Assembly (NCBI GenBank): GCA_016283575.1 | Contig: JAEEND010000002.1 | Location: 1 to 39,629 of the forward strand | From: Lachnospiraceae bacterium | Lineage (GTDB): Bacteria > Bacillota > Clostridia > Lachnospirales > Lachnospiraceae | DNA length: 39,629 nt | Reading direction: 5' to 3' | Part shown: piece by piece, positions 25,969-26,407 of the stretch | Layout: each line of letters begins with the position of its first letter | Numbering within the stretch: the stretch's first letter is position 1 | Made by a program: the position numbers and the translations under genes | The notes under the pieces: generated by a model | Databases searched by the model: none | What the model was told of the DNA's origin: nothing | What the model saw: only the letters and a program-made list of their open reading frames with translations

Positions 25969-26041
25969 CGGGGTGTGGCTCAGGTGGTAGAGCGCTTCGT
26001 TAGGGACGAAGAGGCCGCAAGTTCAAGTCTTGTCACTCCGA
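25969..26041 (+). tRNA. tRNA-Pro (AGG)
   Basis: 73 bases; acceptor CGGGGTG/CACTCCG with one G.U pair, discriminator A26041, anticodon stem CTTCG/CGAAG and loop TTAGGGA, giving anticodon AGG (26002-26004), which reads Pro codon CCU. An A34 tRNA-Pro is uncommon in bacteria and would normally be deaminated to inosine. The 3' CCA is not encoded. The last bases of the gene are also part of the downstream terminator stem. Confidence 0.92.
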
Positions 26042-26085
26042 TTAAAAAAAGGATTATCCGAAAGGATAATCCTTTTTTTAATCGG
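26038..26085 (+). terminator. Very long terminator hairpin of the tRNA cluster
   Basis: A perfect 22-bp stem (26038-26059 with 26064-26085) and a GAAA tetraloop. The core is GGATTATCC/GGATAATCC flanked by A7/T7, so the T-run terminates transcription within the stem. The outermost 4 bp use the CCGA 3' end of tRNA-Pro itself. Confidence 0.93.
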
Positions 26086-26113
26086 AATTTACAGGTTTAA
26101 TTATCCGGCCCCA

Positions 26114-26141
26114 TTCGTCCCTAACGAAACGTTAGGGCGAA
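26114..26141. repeat. Hairpin H1 (tRNA-Pro anticodon-arm palindrome)
   Basis: TTCG-T-CCCTAACG, loop AAA, CGTTAGGG-CGAA, with a single bulged T at 26118. Its 5' half is the reverse complement of the tRNA-Pro anticodon arm and its 3' half is the same arm in direct orientation. Confidence 0.8.
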
Positions 26142-26144
26142 GAG

Positions 26145-26177
26145 GGTGTTGCGTGCCGGTGGCACGCGTTTAACACC
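26145..26177. repeat. Hairpin H2 (two-stem module)
   Basis: Outer stem GGTGTT/AACACC, inner stem GCGTGCC/GGCACGC contiguous on the 5' side, tri-loop GGT, and a 4-base GTTT bulge (26168-26171) on the 3' side. Confidence 0.8.
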
Positions 26178-26180
26178 GAC

Positions 26181-26217
26181 CGTTGCTGAACGTCCAGTGG
26201 ACGTTCGTTTAGCAACG
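26181..26217. repeat. Hairpin H3 (same architecture as H2, different stems)
   Basis: Outer stem CGTTGCT/AGCAACG, inner stem GAACGTCC/GGACGTTC contiguous on the 5' side, tri-loop AGT, and again a GTTT bulge (26207-26210) on the 3' side. Both H2 and H3 are followed by GACCG or its equivalent. Confidence 0.8.
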
Positions 26218-26272
26218 ACCGAAACGGAGTGTAGACGCGAAGCGGAGACCGCAAGTTCAAGTCCGGCTCTCA

Positions 26273-26300
26273 TTCGCCCCTAACGTTTTGTTAGGGCGAA
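26273..26300. repeat. Hairpin H4 (second copy of H1)
   Basis: TTCG-C-CCCTAAC, loop GTTTT, GTTAGGG-CGAA. It matches H1 except for the bulged base (C instead of T) and the loop, and lies 159 bp downstream of it. Confidence 0.8.
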
Positions 26301-26303
26301 GTC

Positions 26304-26319
26304 TTGTGATATTTTTACC
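26304..26319 (-). promoter_or_regulatory. Response-regulator site candidate upstream of pgmB
   Basis: On the minus strand the sequence is GGTAAAAATATCACAA, one mismatch from the GGTAAA-N3-ATTACAA motif found four times before the epimerase gene. It lies 89 bases before the pgmB start. The rest of 26320-26407 is AT-rich, and no promoter could be assigned with confidence. Confidence 0.5.
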
Positions 26320-26407
26320 CATCCCCCTTGCGAGAGTAAATATTTTTCATTGTAAAAGTCTCTTTTTTTCGATAATTTTTATACATTAAGAAAGCGAGGA
26401 CTTACAA

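Follow-up and report, generated by a model that had tools for sequence, protein, structure and literature searches.

Very small mobile repeats of cyanobacteria are tiny and insert into genes as well as into other repeats, and GC-rich palindromes are said, in the title of a cited paper, to flank mitochondrial tRNA genes in Neurospora. REPs are palindromes tagged by GTAG or CGTC, which form tiny hairpins, occur in many copies and sometimes lie within genes, according to the available part of the source (PMC3733652). Rickettsia palindromic elements (RPEs), as portrayed in the accessible part of a second paper, are small palindromic repeats of about 150 bp that are inserted in genes and tend to keep the frame open (PMC10969869). 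The yeast GC42 is a 42-nt palindromic mobile mitochondrial repeat with a constrained stem and a short AG target; the sections at hand of that source describe merging and shuffling of yeast GC clusters, discuss GC42 together with duplicated AG target nucleotides and name no identified transposase (PMC4478555). A literature search, made mostly among papers outside subscription, returned no description of such an element in Lachnospiraceae.

Here we describe a hairpin array found in a 39,629-nucleotide stretch of DNA from a Lachnospiraceae bacterium (contig JAEEND010000002.1), which was analysed as a whole and is referred to as the window. A tRNA-Val/Met/Pro cluster is followed in the window by a 23-bp terminator-like palindrome and then by the array. 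We think it fairly probable that the array derives from the 3' half of tRNA-Pro, copied in part and rearranged, and that a mobile DNA hairpin of about 53 nt has inserted into this copy, with a second hairpin inside the first; this estimate is for the whole explanation, including non-autonomous movement as single-stranded DNA. The features of the region are as follows.

25969..26041, + strand: intact tRNA-Pro (AGG), source of the adjoining pieces (ARAGORN; Rfam RF00005, 61 bits)
26037..26086, + strand: perfect 23-bp palindrome with A- and T-tracts, terminator-like, overlapping the tRNA-Pro 3' end (inverted repeat I1)
26112..26145, + strand: hairpin formed by two copies of the tRNA-Pro anticodon arm, inverted at 26114-26128 and direct at 26130-26145 (repeat and match analysis)
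26146..26182, + strand: first part of the outer unit of about 53 nt, split by the second unit; edges accurate to 1-2 nt (reading against the unit consensus)
26183..26235, + strand: second unit, 53 nt, nested within the outer unit (covariance model R1 match at 26181-26237, 70.2 bits)
26236..26248, + strand: tail of the outer unit, with the mini-hairpin GCGAAGC and the right end (reading against the unit consensus)
26249..26263, + strand: T-arm side of tRNA-Pro, exact 15-base copy immediately 3' of the insert (sequence match)
26264..26301, + strand: second anticodon-arm hairpin, with 26271-26301 84% like 26112-26142 (repeat family D1, inverted repeats I2 and I5)

The palindrome is missing from the output of a simple terminator scan, and its role as a terminator is for this reason putative. 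The tRNA-Pro that precedes it has A at position 34, an anticodon which is unusual for tRNA-Pro in bacteria and occurs in genus-mates as well. A preliminary description of the locus, made from its letters alone, had reported an exact T-arm copy, repeats of the anticodon arm in both orientations and an insertion of about 100 bases with two hairpins, all of which we could confirm. The T-arm copy matches tRNA-Pro 26015-26029 in 15/15 bases, and the inverted anticodon-arm copy at 26114-26128 is likewise an exact reverse complement over 15 bases; 300 dinucleotide-preserving shuffles of 26087-26320 gave matches of at most 10. Inverted and direct anticodon-arm copies are paired twice, in hairpins whose common 31 bases are 84% alike. 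The insertion measures 103 bases (26146-26248) and splits the partial tRNA-Pro copy between adjacent tRNA positions, the copy stopping at 26014 (GG) on its 5' side and restarting at 26015 (CC) on its 3' side. An 8-base tRNA-Val 3' end had also been claimed; inside the gene no match exceeds 7 bases (one flanking base extends it to 8), a length of 8 is attained by 19% of shuffles, and we regard this fragment as chance-level. As a whole the array folds better than 200 out of 200 shuffles (z = -7.6). The 103-base insert consists of two nested copies of one unit of about 53 nt, the second lying in the tail of the first. Only this second copy is picked out by the covariance model, since the outer one is split.

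Alignment of 18 copies defines a unit whose outer stem has 5 pairs and whose inner stem has 8 and an RGT loop; a T-rich linker and GACC lead to a mini-hairpin of 2-3 bp with a GNA loop, and the right end is GNAGA. Two-pair mini-hairpins with GNA loops are unusually stable in DNA. Covariation among these copies is strong, with 89% of cells paired, against 32-40% in slid controls, and 10 of the 15 pairs altered on both sides. Model matches of 54-58 nt were collected with 30-nt flanks (233 placements, or 172 distinct contexts once duplicates were removed); ends and tags were counted in the 167 contexts of 55 or 57 nt, and G.T pairs, inverted ends and target duplications in the 146 of 57 nt. In 95% of cases a purine precedes the unit, followed by G(G), and the right end is AGA in 99-100%, with GGAG in 86 contexts, GTAG in 53 and GAAG in 22. 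No terminal inverted repeats were detected among the 146 copies (3.21 of 12 terminal positions complementary, compared with 3.24 when shuffled), nor any target site duplication (at least 4 nt in 2/146, compared with 1-2 in shuffled pairs).

Judged by sequence comparison, filled and empty sites demonstrate that this unit moves. The complete genome G232 carries a longer repeat with and without the unit, 11 of the 13 copies aligned to locus L098 being empty; the filled form has 54 nt at the site, compared with 1 nt in the empty form. For an HNH endonuclease gene of viral contigs, sorting of all 80 loci by the pattern at the gene end gave 2 filled and 25 empty sites along with 53 other or diverged ends, and the site spans 55 nt in a filled locus versus 4 nt in an empty relative, the last base being common. 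One of those 53 (L163) holds a different hairpin-rich insert at the place occupied by the 53-nt unit in two other contigs. In L081 the unit interrupts an acetyltransferase gene and breaks its reading frame, while the homologues L134 and L135 are without it. The net gain per insertion is 51-53 nt, with 0-3 target bases lost. Nested and tandem copies occur in L058, L071 and L080. An insertion in a tyrosine-recombinase gene (L087) had one partial match beyond its own genome among 79 genomes searched, and as an empty-site case it is suggestive only.

The preliminary description had proposed a search of related genomes and a covariance-model search. The latter recovered the unit in 140 of 299 Lachnospiraceae genomes, where at most 18 candidates were scored per genome and copy numbers are therefore lower bounds, and a class-level sample contained it in 22/391 genomes, 9 of these 22 in Lachnospiraceae. 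Several genomes hold many near-identical copies within longer repeats that differ by genome; many others have a single model match, contrary to what one would expect of an active transposon. Named genomes were also scanned for the exact pattern, which matched at least 120 contigs, and among the 80 matches listed, 55 are Lachnospiraceae by title, the remainder being titled Eubacterium, Roseburia, Coprococcus, Butyrivibrio and others, or just Clostridiales, Clostridia or bacterium. Relatives of the insert occur next to tRNA or tmRNA genes both in the window genome and in others; within the window genome they follow the tmRNA gene (91% identity over about 96 nt), tRNA-Pro(CGG) and tRNA-Gly, and each adjoins fragments of its own neighbouring tRNA or tmRNA. 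The exact pattern was also found in three viral contigs. Among 50,697 phage records the full window array had no match, and a single unit compared with phage and plasmid records matched one unannotated phage scaffold and, weakly, one haloarchaeal plasmid (CP002989, L149, positions 1501-1536: 36 bases, 89% like the second part of the unit, E = 6e-4, perhaps by chance).

Larger repeats carry the unit in several genomes. Some have outer arms resembling GGATTG..CAATCC (L108-L115 of G311, L268, L293, L338, L344 and L316), the ends of the larger repeat in G311 looking like ATGATAC/GTATCAT. In L042, L047, L052, L055 and L062, longer unit-bearing elements lie between inverted repeats of about 20 bp whose sequence is locus-specific, as though flanking host DNA had been copied in inverse orientation. 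G057, a genome from another family of the order, has many copies of a distantly similar hairpin repeat with an inner stem and loop of the same kind (L048, L053, L056 and L064).

Proximity to tRNA genes is a property of a part of the copies. Among 128 pattern matches, which include several contigs per genome, 33 lie within 300 bp of a tRNA, compared with 3.8% of random positions in the same loci, and most copies are elsewhere. This is the better measure of the tRNA share, because some of the 172 contexts come from loci retrieved for their similarity to the window; 60 of the 172 have a tRNA or tmRNA within 400 bp. In these 60 contexts the flanks match the adjacent tRNA at a mean of 18.1/24 positions versus 15.1 for random tRNAs; the match reaches at least 18 in 36, exceeds the best of 30 controls in 24 and is poor in 24. 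Near a tRNA the unit is often lodged, in either orientation, in the T-loop of an incomplete copy of that tRNA lying downstream; where the flanks match, units beside tRNA-Met (forward) and beside tRNA-Gly, -Leu and -Arg (reverse) join the tRNA sequence at the T-loop, and those beside tRNA-Pro join it behind the variable loop. The idea of a tRNA-targeting palindromic mobile element, raised in the preliminary description, comes close as regards the relatives beside tRNA and tmRNA genes in several genomes and the empty sites, but the mobile part is the unit of about 53 nt and not the tRNA-derived hairpins, and most copies have no tRNA nearby. Targeting of hairpin loops, which looks strong by eye, was rejected as a general rule, given a mean stem of 2.99 compared with 2.74 for shuffled pairs, only slightly above, and stems of at least 6 bp in 7 of 167 contexts.

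Within the genus, tRNA-Pro was sought in 15 of 30 loci (excluded were L380 and L392, at a contig end, L400, which is short, and L403, with a CGG tRNA). At the tRNA-Pro(AGG) locus the element is present in the window, G012 and G015 and has left remnants in G013 and G004, while a plain terminator occupies this place in G003, G014, G009, G008, G002, G001 and G006. In agreement with this, the covariance model matched beside the tRNA in L377 and L384, recovered a fragment in L390 and had no match in any of the seven plain-terminator genus-mates. The unit interrupts a tRNA-Leu that has a second, intact copy beside it (L334), a tRNA-Pro (L342) and a tRNA-His-like gene (L266, L305 and L322), the name His being a tentative reading. 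In L282 (7280-7440) it also splits, near the T-arm, a tRNA-like gene that has a long extra arm.

The array could also be read as a small integrative element with the 53-nt unit as its core. Like phages and islands, it would recombine into the 3' end of a tRNA gene and restore that gene with a tRNA 3' end and terminator of its own, the displaced 3' end coming to lie on the far side. Of 43 arrays downstream of a tRNA, 31 do carry an exact copy of the 3' part of that tRNA after the unit, longer than for any of 40 control tRNAs; this far-side duplicate, a feature of tRNA-targeting integrative elements, concerns only part of all copies. An inverted tRNA copy before the unit beats the controls in 14/43. 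A terminator-like hairpin is repeated too in L384 and L080, and whole arrays stand in tandem in L071 and L080. However, insertions of the unit by itself are seen in genes and other repeats far away from tRNAs, with the net gain given above, and some interrupted tRNA genes (L342 and L334) are not restored on the spot. We consider an integrative element unlikely. The duplicated tRNA 3' end and terminator of several arrays are not accounted for by simple insertion.

Just as unlikely, in our estimate, is a REP-like repeat moved by a Y1/RAYT or IS200/IS605-type transposase. The hairpin with its GNAG right end recalls the GTAG tag of REPs, target duplication is absent, and Y1 genes are found in 83 of the 140 unit-bearing genomes. 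Yet the two are not associated: across the 299 genomes, 83 have both, 57 the unit only, 92 Y1 only and 67 neither (odds ratio 1.06, p = 0.82), and we rejected the Y1 transposase as mobiliser. Only 1 of 10 scanned Y1 loci (L127) bears a unit, about 1.4 kb from the gene, and the unit-rich genomes G019, G265 (84% complete) and G272 have no Y1 gene. The enzyme search covered Y1 transposases and found no mobilising enzyme. RAYT-like genes, one of them in the window genome (L119, C25:104300-104635; also L121 and L124), stand amid other palindromic repeats, which are genome-specific and differ from the 53-nt unit.

The hairpin might also spread passively, being copied at GG..C microhomologies by template switching, repair or gene conversion with no dedicated enzyme. 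The loss of 0-3 target bases with no duplication would suit this, and the inverted and direct arm copies resemble products of template switching. Precise common ends in 167 contexts, together with the presence of the unit in unrelated genes, phage contigs and genera, speak against it and suggest a directed process, which leaves passive spread quite improbable.

The preliminary description had also put forward a structured RNA, which would be functional and made with the tRNA transcript, be it as a tRNA decoy, a regulator or a processing signal. The covariation would fit it, as would the position of arrays next to tRNA and tmRNA genes and that of the unit in L045, between a tRNA and a terminator-like hairpin. 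In 146 copies, however, 2122 of 2190 stem pairs are Watson-Crick (97%), and 21 are G.T (1.0%), about as rare as A.C (15), whereas tRNA stems from the same loci contain 99 G.T and 13 A.C in 1057 pairs; the copies compared are those that the covariance model had selected. Since the wobble tolerance that marks an RNA is missing, selection on the unit seems to act at the DNA level. Moreover, the unit occurs in both orientations relative to the tRNA (30 reverse and 13 forward), inserts within ORFs and is absent from the tRNA-Pro locus of seven genus-mates. Rfam left it unmatched at gathering and at permissive thresholds, only the tRNA reaching the gathering score and a few weak miRNA-type matches below that score looking like chance. 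The avoidance of G.T pairs in particular makes an RNA function very improbable. Plain decay of a duplicated tRNA with chance hairpins, which the preliminary description would have accepted for a stretch unique to one genome, as this one is not, is hardly credible. Pieces of tRNA-Pro are truly present, and decay may still describe the flanking arm copies, but for the 103-base insert it is refuted by related units in 140/299 genomes, covarying stems and empty sites.

Returning to the mobile hairpin, the unit is probably a very small non-autonomous element, moved in trans as single-stranded DNA by a putative enzyme. The folded single strand would be cut and joined by that trans-supplied enzyme, and the GG of the target would pair with CC inside the unit and extend the outer stem; such pairing with the foot of the unit would explain the purine-GG target. 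Transfer RNA genes would gather copies because their T-loops offer GG..C. An insertion is expected to ruin the tRNA copy that it enters, and for this reason the surviving insertions would be those in duplicated or partial tRNA copies that have an intact gene next to them. Inverted arm copies may arise by template switching at such hairpins. More tentatively, and with some doubt, we propose that the unit could be a family-wide selfish replicator of only about 53 nt, for which single-stranded movement by a trans-acting putative enzyme, target choice by pairing of GG with the foot, the tRNA T-loop as a refuge and nested arrays beside tRNA genes would form one way of life.

The unit would be a very small piece of mobile DNA, carried by close to half of the genomes sampled from a dominant gut family; it would have defined ends and empty sites, and tRNA copies would be a place where it lands repeatedly. 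Its filled and empty sites are easy to find, and the long-open question of how palindromic repeats without a known transposase move thereby becomes testable. The unit also accounts for hairpin clusters beside tRNA genes that would otherwise be taken for decayed tRNAs or unknown RNAs.

Set beside the known systems, the unit shares with the very small mobile repeats of cyanobacteria, likened here by description, its tiny size and its insertion habit, in another phylum. Like REPs, as far as the consulted part of their description goes, it is a tiny multicopy hairpin, at times within genes (PMC3733652). Near one end it has GNAG, mostly in the form GGAG; unlike REP/RAYT systems it has a second hairpin, the mini-hairpin, and no link to Y1/RAYT. 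It resembles RPEs, within what the available part of that source relates, as a small palindrome inserted in genes of one bacterial group, and differs from these in-frame elements of about 150 bp by its 53 nt and by the broken frame of L081 (PMC10969869). With GC42, in the portion of that work at hand, it has in common that it is a small mobile palindrome under stem constraint with a short target, and merging and shuffling of clusters and the lack of an identified transposase are further points of likeness; GC42 is mitochondrial with an AG target, whereas the unit is bacterial-chromosomal, 53 nt long and flanked on the left by purine-GG, without target duplication (PMC4478555). From MITEs it is separated by having neither terminal inverted repeats nor a target site duplication. 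Altogether, the unit appears to be a tiny palindromic mobile element, distinguished by a length of about 53 nt, by having neither inverted ends nor target duplication, and by its frequent sites in tRNA T-loops.
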